Source of the DNA: Spirochaetaceae bacterium
Lineage (GTDB): Bacteria > Spirochaetota > Spirochaetia > B11-G9
Direction: 5' to 3'
Assembly (NCBI GenBank): GCA_015493635.1
Contig: WGCU01000083.1
Coordinates: forward strand, 1 to 64,000
Length of the DNA: 64,000 bases
This document shows, one piece after another, positions 27,676-64,000 of the stretch. Position numbers and translations under genes: made by a program. The notes below the pieces were generated by a model, which saw only the letters and a list, made by a program, of their open reading frames with translations, did no database searches and was not told the DNA's origin. How positions within the stretch are numbered: the first letter of the stretch is position 1; every line of letters starts with the position of its first letter.

Positions 27676-27705
27676 TTGACGCCGGTATTGTATCAATACT
27701 AGAAT
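27676..27705 (+). promoter_or_regulatory. Promoter of the B12-riboswitch/btuFCD unit
   Basis: TTGACG (27676-27681), 18-base spacer, TAGAAT (27700-27705). The predicted start is about 27712, at the first bases of the riboswitch aptamer. Confidence 0.6.
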
Positions 27706-27710
27706 ACGTA

Positions 27711-27882
27711 AGGTTCATACAGGTCCGCGTAACGCGGTTAATAGGGAAGCAGGTGCGATGCCTGCACGGTCCCGCCACTGTATCGGGGTTTTGTTTTCTG
27801 TTGTACCACTGTCTGGCTGTAAACTATCAGACGGGAAGGTGGAAACAATGAATCCCCGGAGTCAGGAGACCTGCCTGTGTGA
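27711..27882 (+). ncRNA. Cobalamin (adenosylcobalamin-type) riboswitch aptamer
   Basis: The conserved blocks occur in order: GGTTCATACAGGT, then TTAATAGGGAAGCAGGTGC, GTCCCGCCACTGTA, GGAAGGTGGAAACAATGA and the B12 box GAGTCAGGAGACCTGCCTG. This is the classic cobalamin aptamer, placed upstream of B12 transport genes. Binding of cobalamin is expected to lower expression of btuFCD. Confidence 0.95.
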
Positions 27883-27981
27883 AGTACCCGTAAGCGCCTG
27901 CGTGGGAACAGGTCAGGGTATGGATCCGCTCACCTGACTGGCTGACCATATCCTTAAAAAATCTTTATCAAGGTGGAGGAT
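27883..27981 (+). promoter_or_regulatory. Riboswitch expression platform
   Basis: Several mutually exclusive stems are possible: GTCAGG (27912-27917) with CCTGAC (27933-27938), or GGTCAG (27911-27916) with CTGACC (27942-27947), or GGTATGG with CCATATCC. The stems end in TCCTTAAAAAATC, so there is no good T-run after them; control at the level of translation or an imperfect terminator both remain possible. The GGTGGAGG ribosome binding site of btuF ends this stretch. Confidence 0.5.
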
Positions 27982-54075: not shown

Positions 54076-56577
54076 CTAGTTTTTTGGAGGTACCATAACA
54101 AATTCAACCCTTCGGTTTTTCCACCAGATTCTCCGGTCATGCACAGAAACGATAGGATGAAGCCCTCCGTAAAACTCTATCTTGATTTTATTTCTATCCA
54201 TTCCTCTTTTTATAAGAGCCTTTTCCACTGTTTGTGCCCGATGCTGTGTCAGGGGGACAAGGATCTTCTCCTCCCGTGCCTGCCGTGGTGTTCCAAGATA
54301 TATATCCAAAGCGTGACCTTCAAGAATCAACCCGTAACGGGGATATTTTTTATAGATAGCTGCCACTTTGTCGAGGGATTCGTTGTTCCTGTTAAGGAAT
54401 TTAACCCCCGCGGACCCGAGAGCATATTTGTATGCTCCAAAAATAATATTGGGAACAGATATATACGTCTTTCCATTTTTCTCCACGAGCAGGATATCAA
54501 TGGTAACCTTCTTCTCATATACGGTCATGTTGTTCCCTTCATCAGTAACAGTTAATTTTAAAATAATATCATTTCCGGTACTTTCAGCTGCGTCAGCTGT
54601 TTTCTTGTCTGCCGCAACCTTCCAGGTTATATCACCAGAGGGGTTTCCCTCTCCCGCATAACTCCGCAGAACTTCTCCGCCGGCATCAAGGAGATCAACA
54701 CTCCAATGCTTGACCTCTGTATTATCTTTAACCTGCAGCGCAACAAAGACATCACCTTCCACCCCGCCGCTGGATGTTTTGGCAAAAGGATCCGGGACAG
54801 CATGCAGCGCAACAACCGGAGGAGTAATATCAAGTATGAAGGTATTGGATGTCTCTTTCTTTGTAACCCCCTTCTTGAAATACGCGGCAAGAACACCCTT
54901 ATAGGAGCCTTCCGGCGCGGTAATCTCTTTCCCTTCGCTATTTTTTATTTTTCCGTTCCATTCAACACTTTTCGGAAGAAAATCTTTCCCGGAAAACGTC
55001 TTCACACTGTTTCCTGCTTTATCAAAAATACCAAGGCTCCAGCTGCCGACATCATCATACTGACTTGCATCAATAACAAGCTTTTCAGTATCACCTTTTC
55101 CATCATTATTCGGAGAAAACCCCGTTCCCGCAGCAAGCACAAGGGATACCGGTTTTGTATCAACCTTCAAAACAAGAGGTTTAATACTCGTTGTATTCCC
55201 CGCCCTGTCGGTAAACGACGCAATGGCAGAATAGGTTCCATCCTTTACGGTAGTGCCCTTCATGTCTGTTCCATCCCATACAATGAGCGAGGTTGTCTGA
55301 TCCGATGTTTTCTTCAGTATTGTTTCCCCCGAAGCACTAACGATTGATCCTTTCCAGGTTACTATCTCATTCGATGTAAACTGTATATCCGTTACATCAT
55401 TCTTCCCGTTTCCATCCGGTGAGAAAACGGGATTACTATCCGTCACCCGAATCACAGGAGGCGTTACATCGATGTTAAAGGTCTCGGAAGCGGAAGGTTT
55501 GTTCCCGTTTAGATAGGTAACAACAAAATTCACCGTGTACATTCCTTCAGGCATTGGATTCCCTGATGAATCTGTTCCATCCAGAACAACAGAAACAGGG
55601 GGTTCACCGGCTCCCTGTTTCTCCATATATATCTTTCCATTATTATCTGCTATATTCCACCGCCACCCTGTAATACCGGTCTTTACAACCTCATCGAAAA
55701 AGACCTCGTCAGTATCCTTGACTCCGTCTCCGTTGGGCGAAAAATAGGGGTCTTTTACAACAATTGCAACCTTCGTATTAGTGTTATCAAGAACAATACC
55801 CTTCAGTTCAATAGGATCAGAGGTATTTCCGGCTTTATCTGTTGATTTCAGGGAATATGAATAGGTACCGGGAGAAACATCATTTCCGGAATCATCTTTT
55901 CCGTCCCACGCGACCGTTCCGGGGATACTGTCCTTCCAGGTATACGTACGGACTACCGTACCTGCAACATTCAGAATGGTTCCGGTCCAAAGGAGTTCTT
56001 TTGTAGCCTGAGTAACCTTAATAACAAAAGTATCGAGATTTCCATCCCCATTGGGCGAAAAAATCATTTCTCCGGGAGGAACAATAACCGCCGAAGGTTT
56101 TACCGTATCAACAACAAAATTATCTACATCTGTCTCTTTTTTATTACCGGAAGAATCTACAACAAAGAGTTTAACTCTGTACGTTCCATCAGGAACCTGT
56201 TTCCCTTCCAGATCCGTTCCATCCCAGGATATTTCCCGCTCAAGGGTAAACTCCTTATACCCCTGGAAGATTGAGGCAAACCAGCCGATATCTGATTTTT
56301 CCGTTTCCTTGACTTCTTTTAAAACTTTACCGGAAGTATCCAGTATCTGAATACCATATTCAGGGACATACCCCTTTTTACTTTTTACGTACACCTTAAC
56401 GGAAAACTTTAATACCGCACTATCCTGAACACCATCTCCATTTGGAGATATATACTGCGTCCCTGATGTTACCGGCGGTATGACAGGAACCTCCTTGTTT
56501 CCAAATGCGAATAGAACGCCTGAGAGTCCGACGAACAGGAGAACTGCCAGCAATACTGCTTTACTCAACTTTTCCAT
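54076..56577 (-). CDS. Secreted repeat protein with FlgD-like Ig modules and OmpA-like C-terminus
   Basis: An 833-residue exported protein. A signal peptide (AVLLAVLLFVGLSGVLFAFG) is followed by five modules that open with an Asp-rich 'SPNGDG' loop (ISPNGDGVQD, FSPNGDGNLD, FSPNGDGVKD, FSPDGNGKND, FSPNNDGKGD) and carry the FlgD-like 'WDGTD..G..v.dGtY' pattern (for example AWDGKDDSGNDVSPGTYSY). The last ~110 residues are OmpA-like: LILEGHALD, ALIKRGMDRNKIKIEFYGG and WWKNRRVEFVMV, so the end may bind peptidoglycan. The loops resemble calcium-binding sites. Likely a periplasmic or surface structural protein. No usual partner genes are adjacent. Confidence 0.75.
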   Translation of the reverse strand: MEKLSKAVLLAVLLFVGLSGVLFAFGNKEVPVIPPVTSGTQYISPNGDGVQDSAVLKFSVKVYVKSKKGYVPEYGIQILDTSGKVLKEVKETEKSDIGWFASIFQGYKEFTLEREISWDGTDLEGKQVPDGTYRVKLFVVDSSGNKKETDVDNFVVDTVKPSAVIVPPGEMIFSPNGDGNLDTFVIKVTQATKELLWTGTILNVAGTVVRTYTWKDSIPGTVAWDGKDDSGNDVSPGTYSYSLKSTDKAGNTSDPIELKGIVLDNTNTKVAIVVKDPYFSPNGDGVKDTDEVFFDEVVKTGITGWRWNIADNNGKIYMEKQGAGEPPVSVVLDGTDSSGNPMPEGMYTVNFVVTYLNGNKPSASETFNIDVTPPVIRVTDSNPVFSPDGNGKNDVTDIQFTSNEIVTWKGSIVSASGETILKKTSDQTTSLIVWDGTDMKGTTVKDGTYSAIASFTDRAGNTTSIKPLVLKVDTKPVSLVLAAGTGFSPNNDGKGDTEKLVIDASQYDDVGSWSLGIFDKAGNSVKTFSGKDFLPKSVEWNGKIKNSEGKEITAPEGSYKGVLAAYFKKGVTKKETSNTFILDITPPVVALHAVPDPFAKTSSGGVEGDVFVALQVKDNTEVKHWSVDLLDAGGEVLRSYAGEGNPSGDITWKVAADKKTADAAESTGNDIILKLTVTDEGNNMTVYEKKVTIDILLVEKNGKTYISVPNIIFGAYKYALGSAGVKFLNRNNESLDKVAAIYKKYPRYGLILEGHALDIYLGTPRQAREEKILVPLTQHRAQTVEKALIKRGMDRNKIKIEFYGGLHPIVSVHDRRIWWKNRRVEFVMVPPKN

Positions 56578-58021: not shown

Positions 58022-58825
58022 ATGAATACGTCATCTTACATAATGGAAAGCACCGATGAAATCTGCCGCCTGGAAATGAAAACTGATTTTAAAAGGCTGG
58101 AAGAACAGGCTCACTGGGCAGGGCTTCAAAAAGGAATGGATGTTCTTGATGTAGGCTGCGGGTCGGGAATTACCACATCATTTCTTTCCAGAATAACAGG
58201 CCCATCAGGAAAAGTGACCGGTATAGATGCTTCCAGAGACAGAATAATGCACGCACTACAGACATACACCGATGAGGGGATCCGGTTTATTCAGAAAGAT
58301 ATCTATTCGGATACTACTGATATCGGTACGTTTGATTTTATATGGGTCCGGTTTTTTCTTGAATACCACCGGTCTAAAAGCTCTGAAATTGTAAGAAACC
58401 TGACAAATCATCTGAATCCCGGGGGAATTCTCTGCCTCATTGATCTTGATTACAACACCCTGACACATTACGAACTTTCTCCCGCGCTGAATGATTCCAT
58501 TACGGGAATTATGAAGATACTCCAGGAAAAAAATGATTTTGATCCCTATGCTGGAAGAAAATTATACTCGTACCTGTATGACACAGGGATGAAAAATATC
58601 AAGGTAACCCTGCAGCCGCATCATCTTATCTACGGAGAACTCTCTAAAACTGACGCGTTTAACTGGTCTCAGAAAGTTATTGTTGCGGCTAAAAATTCCG
58701 GATATGCGTTCCCTCTCTACCATGACGGCTGGGACGGTTTTTACAAAGAGTTCCAGGACTTTTTTACCAGTCCCCGCAGATTCACCTACACCCCATTAAT
58801 TGCATGCAGGGGTATGAAAGGATGA
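58022..58825 (+). CDS. SAM-dependent methyltransferase, class I
   Basis: A 267-residue Rossmann-fold methyltransferase. SAM-binding motif I is VLDVGCGSGITTSFLSRITG. Motif II is VTGIDASRDRI. Post-I and motif III follow as HLNPGGILCLIDLDYN. The substrate is not evident from the sequence. It sits alone on the plus strand, converging on the HD-GYP gene with seven bases between the stops. Confidence 0.8.
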   Translation: MNTSSYIMESTDEICRLEMKTDFKRLEEQAHWAGLQKGMDVLDVGCGSGITTSFLSRITGPSGKVTGIDASRDRIMHALQTYTDEGIRFIQKDIYSDTTDIGTFDFIWVRFFLEYHRSKSSEIVRNLTNHLNPGGILCLIDLDYNTLTHYELSPALNDSITGIMKILQEKNDFDPYAGRKLYSYLYDTGMKNIKVTLQPHHLIYGELSKTDAFNWSQKVIVAAKNSGYAFPLYHDGWDGFYKEFQDFFTSPRRFTYTPLIACRGMKG

Positions 58826-58832
58826 AAGGCTT

Positions 58833-60785
58833 TTATGCAGAAATAATTCCTTCCAGCCGGGAACCGAAGGTATCTTCAATATAAGGAATAAAAACATCCA
58901 CAATCTTTTTGTCAAGATGATGTCCGCTCGCCTTCCGCAGCTCTGCAATGGCCTGCTGTATAACCATGGGATCACGGTAATGACGTTTGGCAGTAAGAGC
59001 TTCAAAATAATCGGCAACAGCAATAATCCGCGAGCCCAGGGGGATTGCCTCTCCCTTCAGCTTTCCCGGATACCCGTTGCCATCCATCTTTTCATGATGC
59101 GCTCCTGCTATCATGGGAACATCTTTGTATATTCCCTCAAAATATATCTGTTCCAGGATCTCTTTTGTCTTAACTGCATGGCTCTGAATGGTGATGTACT
59201 CATCTCCGGACAGAGGGCCTTCCTTCTTGAGAATGGAATCGGGAATACCTATTTTCCCATAATCATGAAAGAGTGCTGCCAGTCTGACTGTTTCTGTATA
59301 TTCTTTATCAAGATCGAGTAATCCACAGATAACAACAGCATACTCCGTAACTTTCTCTGAATGACCGGCGGTAAGAGGATCCCGTGCATCAATACTGGAA
59401 GCCAGAATCTGCAGTGTTGACTGAAACTGGCGTTCCTTGTCCTCAAAAAGCTCCGCTGTTTTAAGGGCCATACCAATGGCGGAAGCAATACCCATAAACA
59501 AACTTAAATCAGACTGATACAAAGCCCTTTTTGACCGGACATTATCCGCGACAATTACTCCAAGGGATTTGTTTTCATAGATTATCGGGCAGCAGATAAA
59601 AGCCTGGCTGCCCAGTCGTTTTGCAAATTCAAGACTCCGGGGTGAAAGATTCTCTTCAATACCGTTAACATCATTGATAAGAAACGGCCGTTTTTCACGA
59701 AAGGAAACAACAAAAATTCCTTTTGAATCAGGATTCCTCAGATGGAACCGGGTTTCTCTGAGAAGGTCTTTATCTCTTTCGAAATATCCATACCCGGCTT
59801 TAAATGCCAGAAACATCCCGCTGCTGTCAGCCAGGAATATAGCTCCCCGGTCATAGTCCAGGCGTTTTTCAGAAACATGCACAACACTTTCCAGTACATC
59901 GTTAATATTTGTATGATTGCTTATAATTTGTCCTATCTCATAATTCAAGAGGGTATTATTGTAGTTTAGTTCTATCTGCTCTATCCATTTTTCAGGAGAC
60001 CGGTTTGTGATACTTAAAATATCTTTAATTTCTTTCTTTTCCATTAAAAGACTTACTGTCTTCAAAAAAAGCATAACAACACTTGATCCTAAAGCAGCTA
60101 TCAAAGAATACTCCAAATCTTCATATCCGAACCAAAGTGCAATATTCCCGGCAGCAATGACCGGCGCACCAAGGCGCATGATCCTCCGGACAGAATTAGC
60201 CCGGGACTTACCCCAGGTAATGATATACCTGCATCTCTTATCACCGTTAAAAATACACTCAGGATGATCTATCTTCAGGGAAGTTGTATTATAGAGATCT
60301 GCAACAGCCTCGAACATTCCCATCCTGTTCTGACATTGATATTCTTTCTCATGTATACCTGAATGGAGTACTACAATAACCTCCACACTGTTTGTGCCAA
60401 GAATGTTAACTTCATAGTCGGATGATTTTGTTAAATTTTTGGATGCTTTTGTCACCATCTTATACGCGTTGGCAAGCCCCAGAAGTCCCAGGAAATAATA
60501 ACGGACTTCTCCCCCCGCTTTGGAAGAAGCCATAAAATGCCCTGCTTTTCTGGCAATTGATGCATCTCCCAGCAGTTCCTCTATCCTGTAGTAGAATTTA
60601 TCTACCTGTTCCTGGGTAAACCAGTGCCCGTGATCTTCAACCTCATATTCAGTAATACCCGCATAGTCCAGAATCCCTTTGATGTTTATATCCGGGTGAT
60701 TAATGGTTAGATACTTTCTGTACGCTTCAATAATTCTGCTGCTGTACAATTCCTTTTGTTTATCCGGCTCTGATTGTTCAGTCAT
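58833..60785 (-). CDS. HD-GYP c-di-GMP phosphodiesterase with V4R-like and GAF domains
   Basis: A 650-residue protein. Residues ~85-200 resemble a V4R/heme-NO-binding-like sensory domain, with the typical end HPECIFNGDKRCRYIITW. Two membrane helices follow (residues ~212-248), then a GAF domain (~290-440) and a C-terminal HD-GYP domain with LFHDYGKIGIP, the second metal-binding region IAGAHHEKMDGNGYPG, and IIAVADYFEALTA. HD-GYP enzymes hydrolyse c-di-GMP. The gene overlaps the upstream PilZ-GNAT gene by eight bases, so a c-di-GMP receptor and its hydrolase are made together. Confidence 0.88.
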   Translation of the reverse strand: MTEQSEPDKQKELYSSRIIEAYRKYLTINHPDINIKGILDYAGITEYEVEDHGHWFTQEQVDKFYYRIEELLGDASIARKAGHFMASSKAGGEVRYYFLGLLGLANAYKMVTKASKNLTKSSDYEVNILGTNSVEVIVVLHSGIHEKEYQCQNRMGMFEAVADLYNTTSLKIDHPECIFNGDKRCRYIITWGKSRANSVRRIMRLGAPVIAAGNIALWFGYEDLEYSLIAALGSSVVMLFLKTVSLLMEKKEIKDILSITNRSPEKWIEQIELNYNNTLLNYEIGQIISNHTNINDVLESVVHVSEKRLDYDRGAIFLADSSGMFLAFKAGYGYFERDKDLLRETRFHLRNPDSKGIFVVSFREKRPFLINDVNGIEENLSPRSLEFAKRLGSQAFICCPIIYENKSLGVIVADNVRSKRALYQSDLSLFMGIASAIGMALKTAELFEDKERQFQSTLQILASSIDARDPLTAGHSEKVTEYAVVICGLLDLDKEYTETVRLAALFHDYGKIGIPDSILKKEGPLSGDEYITIQSHAVKTKEILEQIYFEGIYKDVPMIAGAHHEKMDGNGYPGKLKGEAIPLGSRIIAVADYFEALTAKRHYRDPMVIQQAIAELRKASGHHLDKKIVDVFIPYIEDTFGSRLEGIISA

Positions 60786-62826
60786 TTGTTTTTTGCATCC
60801 TTAACAGTCTACGTATAAATTTGAAATACTTGTCGGTGAAATCAAAACCCGTAATCCACAACGTGTATTTTTTTTCATAAGGGAACCCCTGCTCATCAGC
60901 ATACGACACAGGATATATCAGCACACGGGCAGAGCCTTCATAGTATTTTCTTACCAACTCTTTTATAACATTTGACAACAGTTCTTTTGTTACTTCACGG
61001 GGAGTGACAATAAACACCTTGATACTATTTGCAAGTTCCGACATATTGATCCCGGTGTCAGCTCTATCGATTAGGAAAACAGCTAAAAGAGTATCCCCTT
61101 TTTTCAGGGAGATAATCTCAAAGTCCCTTCTTAAATTATCCCTTTTGTAAACTGAAGTGATGTCCTTGTTAAAAGATGAAGACGGAAGAATATCCATTGC
61201 CTTCAGCATCAGTCCGCCGGAAATACCACTATAAAACCCCTTAAGATCAACAAGATCCCGGGCAGTACTTTTAACAAGATGAGCACTATCCGTTTCATCA
61301 AAAAAACCGTCCCGGTCAGCTGTTATTTCCGTATAAGCAAAATCATCCTCTGAACAACCTTTCTTATTGCCTAATAATTTCCTGTAACCGCCGAAAACCC
61401 TCGCGGGGAATTTATTCTCCGGTCTGTAGTAGATCATGAGATAATCAAGATGAAGGGAAGGTATCCGATGGGCACTGTACGCATAATCAGCCATCGTGAC
61501 CATAACCGATACCCCGGCATTATGGTTGTGGACGCTGGATGAGGCATGATGATGCAGCAGCCAGGCCTTTTCATAAACTCTGAGCATGGCTATGTGTCCC
61601 AGAATTCTTCCCTTGTCCTGATAGGTGATGTACTTGTATACTTCAGGAGAATGTGAATATATTTTCCGGTACATTTTCCGGATTGCATCCTTGTTTTGGG
61701 ACAGATGAGAATATTTCTTCGGATAGATGAAGCCGGACTCAAAGATAAACTGCCAGAACGCTTCATTGTCGACCTCTCTGCCCAGATACAGATATTTATT
61801 CTGAGCCTGAAATACTATCGCCATCAGCCGGGCATGATCCCGGGGAGTCATATCCAGAAAACATATACCAATTTTTAATGCTGACTGTTTTTCCCTTTCC
61901 TTTGAAACAGCTCTGTAGATAATTTGAATCTTGCAGAGGATCTTTACATCTTCCGAAAAAACTATTTCAGCCGCAGGAATAATCATTCCCGGCAGCAGTG
62001 ATCCGTCGTGGAGTTCTTCTTCAACAGAAAACCCCGATCCTGATATATCAGAAATCAGTAAATTCTTAACCTGCCCTGTTAGAGGATGGGTAAACGATAA
62101 GTTTGGACCGGGTATAATAGCAATTCTGGTAAATCTCTCTTCCTGATGTTTGAACCGGTGTATATTGTCATACAGCGGCATCAGTATTATTTCCGCTGAT
62201 CCTTCGGTATCCGAATGTTTAAAAATTTTCATCTCTCCGGAAAAAACGATATGCTGGGAGTTGATAAATGTAACCGTCATGGATTCTTCCATGTTGAGAA
62301 ACGAAATATTCTGATTATAAAGAGAATCCATTTCCACTCTGACTGATTCTGTTGAAAAACTTTTCAAGCTGCCTTTATATATAATCCCATTCTGAATCAT
62401 CTGAGCCCGGATGTTTTTACAGGAATGTCTCCGAGCCCTCCTGGAAATAAGTTCCAGACCTGTTTCAGGAAGCATAATATTCAATCCATCATCATCAAGG
62501 GTATAGTTATCGCTTCCAAAAGAGATAGTACTCATTCCATCATCAAGCTGCAGATGGTCGAAAACAAAATTCCTCTGGTCAATTTCATCTTCAGGAAGAG
62601 TTATCCATGAACAATGGAGCATTTCCCCGTTGCAGGGACCGGGTCTTACCTTTATATTGATATGCTGGTTATACTGCCTGTGTTTAAAAACAGAAATAAT
62701 ATCCCTATCCTGGAAGTTCATATAATTTAGTCGATTAATAAGGTTTTTTCTGTTAATTGTCCGTGTATTTTTCTGGATAATCGGTTCCGGGGAACCGGTT
62801 CCTTCTATCTCCAGAAGTCTGTCCAT
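60778..62826 (-). CDS. PilZ-domain / GNAT-like acyltransferase protein
   Basis: A 682-residue soluble protein with no signal peptide. An N-terminal region of unknown fold comes first. A PilZ-like segment begins at RRARRHSCKNIRAQM and is followed by a second, RFTRIAIIPGP, ending ISDISGSGFSVEEEL, the R...D/NxSxxG pattern for c-di-GMP binding. Residues ~350-600 resemble a GNAT acyltransferase of the long-chain type (ILGHIAMLRVYEKAWLLHHH and SLHLDYLMIYYRPENKF). The combination suggests acyl transfer controlled by c-di-GMP. It overlaps the HD-GYP gene by eight bases. The domain calls are by eye; the GNAT part is the less certain. Confidence 0.65.
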   Translation of the reverse strand: MDRLLEIEGTGSPEPIIQKNTRTINRKNLINRLNYMNFQDRDIISVFKHRQYNQHINIKVRPGPCNGEMLHCSWITLPEDEIDQRNFVFDHLQLDDGMSTISFGSDNYTLDDDGLNIMLPETGLELISRRARRHSCKNIRAQMIQNGIIYKGSLKSFSTESVRVEMDSLYNQNISFLNMEESMTVTFINSQHIVFSGEMKIFKHSDTEGSAEIILMPLYDNIHRFKHQEERFTRIAIIPGPNLSFTHPLTGQVKNLLISDISGSGFSVEEELHDGSLLPGMIIPAAEIVFSEDVKILCKIQIIYRAVSKEREKQSALKIGICFLDMTPRDHARLMAIVFQAQNKYLYLGREVDNEAFWQFIFESGFIYPKKYSHLSQNKDAIRKMYRKIYSHSPEVYKYITYQDKGRILGHIAMLRVYEKAWLLHHHASSSVHNHNAGVSVMVTMADYAYSAHRIPSLHLDYLMIYYRPENKFPARVFGGYRKLLGNKKGCSEDDFAYTEITADRDGFFDETDSAHLVKSTARDLVDLKGFYSGISGGLMLKAMDILPSSSFNKDITSVYKRDNLRRDFEIISLKKGDTLLAVFLIDRADTGINMSELANSIKVFIVTPREVTKELLSNVIKELVRKYYEGSARVLIYPVSYADEQGFPYEKKYTLWITGFDFTDKYFKFIRRLLRMQKTND

Positions 62827-62912: not shown

Positions 62913-64000
62913 CTAGTAAATCCCGGTAAACATTTTCTGTGCCAGTTTTACGGGACGTTTATTATCAAGTAATGTTTTCTCCATGTAATGTCTGTCCAGA
63001 TCCAGATTCTCCACCAGGGAAAGCAGCAACTCCTCGGTAACAAGATTCTGTTCAACAAAAAGATAGATAAGGGCCTTTTCAGCTATAAACTTTACTTTCA
63101 AAGCGTTTAAATTTATTTTCTGTTCCGGATCATGGGCATACCGGTTATGCAGATGGTGGAATAACTGCGATTGTTCCATGGAATTCTTGATTGCCTGCAG
63201 TTCATCCTTTAACGGCATTATGTTCCCCTTCGAGGCTTCCTCTCCCAGAGGTTTTAACGTAAAATAGGTATACTCTTTTCCGGGAAGATAATGGTGCCGG
63301 TCGCAGCGGGTACAGTAATTGGGTTCCACCGACCCTTTTTTCTGCCGGTCTCCCCCAATAACTATAAGCGGATCAAAATACAGTGCGGGGCATTCAAGTC
63401 CGTCTATTTGATAGTAGCGGTATGTATAAAAGGAATCGTCTATACAGTCAGGATGCTCACAGTATGCAGTTAAGGGGAATACATCGGTTGCTGTTTCAAG
63501 AAGGAGACTGGCCGTTGAGTTAAATATATCTCTTCGAAAATTAAGAATAAGGGTAGGAAAAATAAAAAGAAGTCCCCTTTTTCTACTCTCGTTCCTCATG
63601 ACATACACAAGCCGTTCGTCATAAAACGAAGCTTCATCAATAATCCAGGTTCCGGTTTCAGGATGCTCCGAGATAATTTTCTCAAGCTCAAAAGAATCCT
63701 TTATATGCGCAATATTATCTCCACACCGCTCATATCCTCCGCGGTAGGCAAGAGCATCCTCCGGATAATCCGGAAATCTTCCGGCATCAAGAATTGACCG
63801 GATAAAAAAGACCTCCCGCCTGTCAGCACCCATGGTTGTTGTACTGTTTTTTATTCGTTCACTCTTTCCCATGGCGACTTTTGAATCACGCCATACCCCG
63901 GCTGAAAACTCGGTCTTCCCTGATCCCATGGGTCCGATAACCAGGATCCGTCTCGATGGGCGGGTAAAATCAAAGTGATTAAAAGAGTGATGAACCCGTA
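62913..64000 (-). CDS. Thymidine-kinase-like P-loop protein (5' end outside window)
   Basis: The frame is open to the right edge, so the start lies beyond 64000; 362 codons are visible. The N-terminal strand and P-loop read RRILVIGPMGSGKTEFSAGV, as in the thymidine kinase family. WIIDEASFYDERLVYVM corresponds to the Walker B/lid part of TK (DEAQFF). Cysteines at AYCEHPDC and YCTRC could hold zinc, as in TK. A helical C-terminal extension of ~110 residues is not part of TK, so either a fused regulatory domain or a different nucleotide-binding role is possible. I call it TK-like rather than tdk. Confidence 0.6.
   Translation of the reverse strand, partial: RVHHSFNHFDFTRPSRRILVIGPMGSGKTEFSAGVWRDSKVAMGKSERIKNSTTTMGADRREVFFIRSILDAGRFPDYPEDALAYRGGYERCGDNIAHIKDSFELEKIISEHPETGTWIIDEASFYDERLVYVMRNESRKRGLLFIFPTLILNFRRDIFNSTASLLLETATDVFPLTAYCEHPDCIDDSFYTYRYYQIDGLECPALYFDPLIVIGGDRQKKGSVEPNYCTRCDRHHYLPGKEYTYFTLKPLGEEASKGNIMPLKDELQAIKNSMEQSQLFHHLHNRYAHDPEQKINLNALKVKFIAEKALIYLFVEQNLVTEELLLSLVENLDLDRHYMEKTLLDNKRPVKLAQKMFTGIY

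Follow-up and report, generated by a model that had tools for sequence, protein, structure and literature searches.

Gene content and domain architecture

Three neighbouring genes were distinguished in the window, the whole stretch of 64,000 nucleotides that was analysed: gene A, predicted to encode a c-di-GMP receptor fused to a tandem GNAT acyltransferase, gene B, encoding the sensor S, and gene M, encoding a methyltransferase (Table 1). The open reading frames of A and B share eight bases (60778–60785), which agrees with the overlap reported in the earlier note on this DNA.

Table 1. Positions of the three genes and of the domains of A and S.
Feature	Position	Strand	Basis or remark
Gene M, class I SAM methyltransferase	58022..58825	+	267 aa, runs towards B and ends 7 bp short of it
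Gene B, sensor S (sensor domain, membrane hairpin, GAF, HD-GYP)	58833..60785	-	650 aa
S residues 14-192, V4R-like/H-NOX-fold sensor domain	60210..60746	-	3tfd match, conservation
S residues 203-250, two hydrophobic helices (membrane hairpin)	60036..60179	-	hydrophobic peaks
S residues 294-441, GAF	59463..59906	-	Pfam
S residues 461-640, HD-GYP	58866..59405	-	Pfam and ligand residues
Gene A, c-di-GMP-receptor/tandem-GNAT acyltransferase (predicted)	60778..62826	-	682 aa
A residues 21-118, YcgR N-domain-like barrel	62473..62766	-	structural match
A residues 126-219, PilZ1	62170..62451	-	8u0i Z 10.6 and motif conservation
A residues 227-344, PilZ2	61795..62148	-	4xrn Z 15.4 and motif conservation
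A residues 345-502, N-terminal GNAT	61321..61794	-	model, structural match, conservation
A residues 515-660, C-terminal GNAT	60847..61284	-	model, structural match, conservation

The AlphaFold2 model of A (pLDDT 84.5, pTM 0.74) includes the GNAT fold in tandem. Its residues 343–666 matched the tandem GNAT 9emp (Z 13.6, 4.1 Å, 263 aligned), and also the top Foldseek match (E 1.6e-9) was a tandem GNAT. Residues 16–221 matched YcgR with c-di-GMP (5y6f; Z 11.4, 3.9 Å, 190 aligned), and the PilZ2 barrel matched the c-di-GMP-bound PilZ structure 4xrn with an rmsd of 1.8 Å over 105 aligned residues. No meaningful match was found when A was compared with the PDB sequences by phmmer and profile searches. 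A BFVD search with A returned tandem-GNAT and N-myristoyltransferase folds, which are uninformative on function.

The Pfam PilZ family scored 17.8 bits on A itself (E 0.0044), below the cut-off of 22.5, and A was absent from the matches of a PilZ search of its own genome at E ≤ 0.001. Fifteen of the 24 aligned A-type sequences matched PilZ, with a lowest E of 2.2e-9. For gene B, Pfam identified HD_5 (E 7.9e-43) and GAF (E 1.3e-13). The V4R family (PF02830) did not reach its threshold there (11.9 bits against a cut-off of 31, E 0.24); it was matched by eight of the 24 aligned sensors at E ≤ 1 (best 0.00095), and its match to one further sensor (L138, E 2.9e-5) was likewise under the curated cut-off. 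The domain is therefore called only V4R-like. With this reservation, the domains that the earlier note had assigned were recovered in both proteins: PilZ and GNAT in A by the model and the structural matches, and V4R-like, GAF and HD-GYP in B.

Conserved residues of A and S

Across 91 sequences, the first motif of PilZ2 is RxxR instead of RxxxR, with R231 conserved in 100% and R234 in 99%, and R224 in 93%. The second motif, D/NxSxxG, is present (D260 96%, S262 98%, G265 99%). In PilZ1 the first motif, R129xxxR133, is conserved in 95 and 97% of the same number of sequences and the second is degenerate, ending in S and not in G (S156xS158xxS161 in gene A itself). The c-di-GMP ligands, the absence of which the earlier note had named in advance as grounds against its reading, were thus conserved, as the RxxR variant and D/NxSxxG in PilZ2 and as RxxxR in PilZ1.

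In the N-terminal GNAT, H411, R416, W422, H426, G438, R468, N471 and F473 are near-invariant, and N594, S596 and L598 are conserved in the C-terminal one. W422, H426 and N471 align to identical residues in a PilZ-less relative (P0001). The canonical acyl-CoA P-loop motif of GNATs is Q/RxxGxG/A, and no obvious instance of it was found in the stretch from strand 4 to helix 3 in either GNAT half; within residues 430–438, G438 alone reaches 90% conservation or more.

The sensor domain of S showed the H-NOX fold (3tfd; Z 17.0, 2.7 Å, 169 of 182 residues aligned, 11% identity). The proximal heme histidine of H-NOX would presumably fall near residues 95–118, where S has no histidine and the sensor alignment no conserved one, and heme sensing was dropped for this reason. 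C151, H174, C177 and C185 are invariant in the alignment of the sensor domain, and the spacing of the three cysteines (26 + 8 residues) equals that of the zinc cysteines in the phenol-binding domain of DmpR. The profile of the sensor domain matched the PDB at chance level only. The VIA list for B consisted mostly of GAF and HD-GYP domains, so that the absence of MopR and DmpR from it is uninformative. The sensing at the membrane that was proposed earlier is more aptly described as sensing by a cytosolic domain that is carried on a membrane hairpin, two hydrophobic peaks being present in 64 of 66 sensors.

The HD-GYP residues H475, H507/D508, K511, H536, H563/H564, GYP571–573 and D592 are all present in S. 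Seven of the eight metal ligands of PmGH are kept and L471 replaces E185; in PmGH the substitution E185A lowered the activity and did not abolish it. From these residues S is predicted to be a protein that would hydrolyse c-di-GMP. The messenger is probably used in this genome, since 16 GGDEF matches were found in it.

Linkage and co-occurrence across relatives

Relatives were collected from genome contigs with an alignment as the query, the best 80 of 402 being kept; a scan with the single A protein as the query gave none. Seven of the 103 loci were removed as duplicates (L037–L041, L065, L099), leaving 96. Thirty of the 95 A loci had less than 5 kb downstream and were left out, so that 65 were counted; one locus (L116) was excluded because its A frame was lost in longest-ORF gene picking.

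Both a sensor and M were present in 44 of the 65 loci, M only in 10, a sensor only in 10 and neither in one. The neighbourhood, for which the earlier note had asked for a check, is thus conserved, with S and/or M in 64 of 65 loci. In 55 of 56 cases among the relatives a sensor gene on the same strand starts within 60 bp of the stop of A or overlaps it, which shows that the arrangement of A and B is no chance event. M was opposite to A in 59 cases and in the same orientation in 12; being usually convergent, it is mostly outside the A operon. Apart from S and M, no neighbour was found in more than 16 of the 96 loci. A PP-loop ATPase, a biosynthesis-type gene, directly precedes M in three loci (L080, L117, L119).

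Among 192 genomes of the first class, A and M were found together in 46, A only in 17, M only in three and neither in 126 (p-value 2e-26, shared ancestry ignored). The corresponding numbers for A and S were 54, nine, 14 and 115 (p-value 5e-25, shared ancestry ignored). In the second class (195 genomes), A and M were found together in 76, A only in four, M only in one and neither in 114 (p-value 5e-48, again ignoring shared ancestry). Of the genomes that carry M, 46 of 49 in the first class and 76 of 77 in the second thus also have A. One genome (G635) holds both genes even though they are about 66 kb apart. In the first class, both partners were absent in six of 63 A genomes and A was absent in 14 of 68 S genomes. 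A lone GNAT was found with neither S nor M nearby (L137), S adjoined M with no A-like match nearby (L118), and many Desulfuromonadia have two copies of A and one of M.

One 643-aa protein (G630) is a natural fusion of the tandem GNAT and M; it includes no PilZ and its gene overlaps that of S. In hhalign comparisons its GNAT part matched the A alignment with a probability of 96.8% (E 2.5e-10) and its M part the M alignment with 99.8% (E 1.8e-30). In another genome (G608), M, a PilZ-less GNAT and S are consecutive. The output of the sensor alternates between HD-GYP and histidine kinase while the sensor half is unchanged, with at least four changes on the A tree, two of them forced by well-supported branches. 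The output swap and the PilZ-less GNATs show that acyltransferase, methyltransferase and sensor form the invariant core, and that control through PilZ and the hydrolysis of c-di-GMP vary. As the link to the sensor half survives both the kinase swap and the absence of PilZ, c-di-GMP alone is not the reason for the linkage. The two-gene closed circuit of the earlier note was therefore incomplete: it missed M, which is linked to A and co-occurs with it as strongly as the sensor does, and the constant tie is the sensor half of S and not the HD-GYP.

Interpretation of the gene set

The best explanation, tentative and at somewhat under an even chance, is that the three genes make and sense a small molecule, a hydrophobic, acylated and methylated metabolite produced by A and M and read by S. 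The tandem GNAT of A would transfer an acyl group, and methylation by M would yield the metabolite, which, or a precursor of which, the V4R-like domain of S may bind at the cytosolic face of the membrane. In this genome S would then hydrolyse c-di-GMP and so shift the PilZ occupancy on A, closing a feedback loop; in other lineages S would relay the signal as a histidine kinase. In favour of this reading are the linkage of S and M with A, the co-occurrence in two classes and in the genome with distant genes, the fusion and the row of three, the PP-loop neighbour, the output swap with the sensor half kept, and the DmpR-like cysteine spacing; the catalytic activities, their order, the product, its binding by S and the sign of the control by c-di-GMP are inferred. 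Synthase-like genes are here linked to and co-occur with a receptor-like gene, as in autoinducer systems. Against this count the lack of an obvious P-loop, the mostly convergent M, the genomes and loci with partners missing, the copy mismatch in Desulfuromonadia, and the probability of no more than 1.1% (E 0.047) with which the profile of the sensor domain matched XylR_N sensors.

A serious competitor, also with less than an even chance, stays close to the earlier note: S would sense an outside or redox cue instead of the product, lower c-di-GMP and so gate A, while A and M modify a lipid or other envelope component. The HD-GYP ligands of S, the conserved PilZ ligands of A and the probable use of c-di-GMP in the genome are consistent with it, and the three cysteines and one histidine that are invariant in the sensor may undergo redox chemistry or coordinate a metal; persistence of the sensor-half link with a kinase output and without PilZ argues against it.

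It is unlikely that the two enzymes modify a protein, A by acetylation and M by methylation, and so regulate motility or envelope behaviour in the manner of PixB (MXAN_2604) of Myxococcus xanthus. PixB, according to the accessible part of its description, likewise consists of two PilZ domains fused to GNAT, binds c-di-GMP, regulates motility and development and needs the GNAT for its function, its substrate being left undetermined by its authors (PMC8316039). The same source reports one acetyltransferase domain and RxxxR in both PilZ domains, whereas A has a tandem GNAT; furthermore, no other neighbour recurs widely, and the GNAT–M fusion and the PP-loop neighbour suit a biosynthetic pathway better. 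That A has no catalytic activity and serves S or M as a binding partner under c-di-GMP control, as the lack of an obvious P-loop might suggest, is very improbable given its many invariant polar residues (R416, W422, H426, R468, N471, N594), three of which (W422, H426, N471) are shared with the PilZ-less relative.

Returning to synthesis and sensing by one gene set, we regard as doubtful, if possible, the more specific version in which the product is a hydrophobic signal, e.g. an amino acid with an acyl and a methyl group. A dedicated V4R-like membrane receptor with either HD-GYP or kinase as its output would read this signal, and c-di-GMP would gate its synthesis through the fused PilZ, the whole being an undescribed system widespread in anaerobic bacteria. 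The gene set itself was found in several bacterial phyla. If this version is true, a second-messenger receptor sits directly on a signal synthase, in a system that both makes and reads a signal in sulfate- and metal-reducing bacteria, spirochaetes, planctomycetes and Nitrospira, from which few native signals are known to us. Through the module, the substrate of GNATs under c-di-GMP control becomes accessible to experiment, and the fusion offers one assayable protein.

Comparison with described systems

The gene set was undescribed in the literature searched, which mostly did not extend to subscription papers and preprints; PixB and HfsK came up there as known c-di-GMP-regulated GNATs, and PMC9756655 was listed for the combination of HD-GYP with V4R. 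HfsK of Caulobacter crescentus is, like A, a tandem-GNAT c-di-GMP effector; it differs in its holdfast role and in having FemX as the closest solved relative, and the accessible part of its description does not mention PilZ (PMC5362036). In Phc quorum sensing of Ralstonia, by a description available in part, the methyltransferase PhcB makes a fatty-acid methyl ester that the kinase PhcS reads. To our knowledge the Phc system has neither GNAT nor PilZ. In the DSF system RpfF/RpfC/RpfG, too, a signal synthase lies close to a sensor that acts through HD-GYP, but RpfF is a crotonase-fold enzyme and a separate response regulator carries the HD-GYP. The phenol sensors XylR, DmpR and MopR have a V4R-type domain, as S has a V4R-like one, and the same spacing of the three cysteines; unlike S they are sigma-54 regulators, and where the XylR_N set has a glutamate three residues before the second cysteine, S has the invariant His174.

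Linkage and co-occurrence of A, M and S

The all-against-all comparison of the neighbour genes of 96 A loci identified two recurrent neighbours, the B-type protein (sensor S) and the methyltransferase M, present at 71 loci each, with the next cluster at only 16. The reading frames of A and B lie where the earlier two-gene note had placed them, and their eight-base overlap was confirmed. M, the third recurrent gene in the window, shared 45-59% identity with 72 relatives; its best PDB match was 3mgg (E 7.2e-20), and the matches listed also included juvenile hormone acid methyltransferases. Of the 65 A loci whose downstream sequence reached 5 kb or more, 44 had both S and M, 10 M only, 10 S only and one, L033, which has a very long branch, neither. 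Same-strand sensors started at most 60 bp from the A stop, or overlapped it, in 55 of 56 cases, and 13 further sensors were on the opposite strand. M was opposite to A in 59 cases and on the same strand in 12.

In the phylum draw 3 of 296 genomes had A, and in the class draw 22 of 297, with the host genome counted in both. The class of Desulfosarcina widdelii was represented by 192 genomes, of which 63 had A, 49 M, 68 S and 43 all three; 57 of the 63 A genomes had M or S. For the class of Geobacter sp. AOG1, 195 genomes were compared: 80 had A, 77 M and 76 both. Fisher values for such co-occurrence assume independent genomes, and these genomes are related. Because of linkage and co-occurrence, it is nearly certain that A, M and S form one functional unit. 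In genome G635, A and M were separated by approximately 66 kb on the same contig. Many Desulfuromonadia genomes have two A copies, often approximately 100 kb apart, yet one M.

A PP-loop ATPase, possibly an additional biosynthetic step, immediately precedes the methyltransferase at three loci (L080:6038-6874, L117:6515-7348 and L119:6546-7415). Four Geomonas loci (L053, L058, L113 and L115) have, besides the downstream HD-GYP type, an extra sensor that lies upstream of A and is encoded on the other strand; it ends in a histidine kinase in the two scanned (L053 and L058).

Scanning genome contigs yielded 402 relatives of A, the best 80 including Spirochaetes, Desulfobacterota, Geobacter/Geomonas, Planctomycetota, Nitrospira and Brocadia, and also one 10-kb Methanoperedens contig, possibly contamination.

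Domain structure of A

The AlphaFold2 model of A, built from an alignment of 24 sequences, was confident (pLDDT 84.5). In VIA-align comparisons of this predicted model, residues 16-221 resembled YcgR bound to c-di-GMP (Z 11.4, 3.9 A, 190 aligned), residues 227-344 PilZ domains (Z 15.4, 1.8 A, 105 aligned) and residues 343-666 tandem GNATs (Z 13.6, 4.1 A, 263 aligned), the top match of the last being the histidine acetyltransferase 9emp, with 9emd and 9en3 within about 1 Z. The GNAT part has many near-invariant residues among 91 aligned sequences and no named family in Pfam or NCBIfam. In the same sequences, PilZ2 keeps R231xxR234, one residue shorter than the canonical RxxxR, and D260xS262xxG265; PilZ1 keeps R129xxxR133 and has lost the second-motif glycine. 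This conservation makes it likely that at least one predicted site binds c-di-GMP despite the shortened PilZ2 motif, and, since the ligands are conserved, c-di-GMP probably controls A. Precedents for c-di-GMP-regulated GNATs are, according to excerpts of the papers, PixB (PilZ-PilZ-GNAT; PMC8316039) and HfsK (tandem GNAT; PMC5362036). At L032:7714-9701, A appears to be divided into two ORFs, but a stretch of undetermined bases separates them, so the split may be an assembly artefact.

Sensor S and its variable output

The first 190 residues of B have an H-NOX fold in structure comparison (Z 17.0, 2.7 A, 169 aligned), lack the H-NOX heme histidine and show weak V4R similarity. C151, H174, C177 and C185 were invariant in 24 sequences; the cysteine spacing (26 + 8) is identical to that of XylR_N proteins, and the zinc ligands of DmpR are, in the excerpt available, Cys151, Glu172, Cys177 and Cys185. 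Comparing profiles of the sensor domain and XylR_N sensors gave a probability of just 1.1% (E 0.047). Two hydrophobic peaks follow the sensor domain in B and in 64 of 66 sensors, which should place this domain in the cytosol, on the side of the HD-GYP. The HD-GYP ligands of B are all present except for Leu471 at the position of Glu185 in the reference protein PmGH.

On the A tree (92 rows, 17 not scorable for partner-sensor output), the output was HD-GYP in 59 and histidine kinase in five, and 11 rows had no sensor within 5 kb downstream. The output label requires at least four changes on this tree, two being forced by well-supported branches for the kinase group. This swap and the loci with a PilZ-less GNAT show that HD-GYP and PilZ are variable, and that the constant parts are the GNAT, M and the sensor half.

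Loci departing from the common pattern

M without A was found in three genomes of the D. widdelii class. G608 has a row of PP-loop ATPase, M, a 375-aa PilZ-less GNAT matching A 350-631 (hhalign 97.3%, E 1.7e-11) and kinase-type S. In G679, M adjoins kinase-type S, and no A-like match was found in 18 kb; in G572, a PP-loop gene precedes M at a contig end. G630, also without A, has a GNAT-M fusion overlapped by a kinase-type S gene. A second PilZ-less GNAT (L136:10254-11354) lies downstream of this fusion and sensor, after a receiver-like gene.

A, M and S would act as a module for synthesis and sensing, the favoured though tentative reading, whose whole chain has somewhat less than an even chance of holding. 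In the Phc system, as excerpted, a signal produced by a methyltransferase is read by a kinase; no description of the A-M-S gene set was found in the literature searched. The main rival is that S detects an outside cue and, via c-di-GMP, gates envelope modification. Counting against synthesis and sensing are G674, with a PilZ-less GNAT alone, and the 14 of 68 S genomes of the D. widdelii class that lack A. At 11 S loci in 10 of these 14 (beyond G608, G630 and G679, with G649 left out), neither M nor GNAT was among the listed neighbours. The sensors of L138-L142 have neither A nor M nearby, and in these five genomes they share short regulator-like and/or AMP-ligase-like neighbours; these functions, guessed from sequence, suggest that such orphan sensors may serve another use.

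Other features of the window and host genome

Features of the window discussed in the text
Feature	Position	Strand	Description
Methyltransferase M	58022-58825	+	class I SAM methyltransferase
B (sensor S)	58833-60785	-	650 aa
A	60778-62826	-	682 aa
ORF upstream of A	62913-63929	-	338 aa; GSGKT P-loop near start, paired cysteines
833-aa protein	54076-56577	-	repeated FlgD/CHU_C-type Ig domains, then terminal OmpA-like domain
Cobalamin riboswitch	27704-27892	+	113.8 bits

The 338-aa ORF had no Pfam match and is, by eye, perhaps thymidine-kinase-like. The host genome (3.27 Mb, 101 contigs) has Spirochaetes MAGs as its nearest named relatives in the contig scan and contains 16 GGDEF matches.
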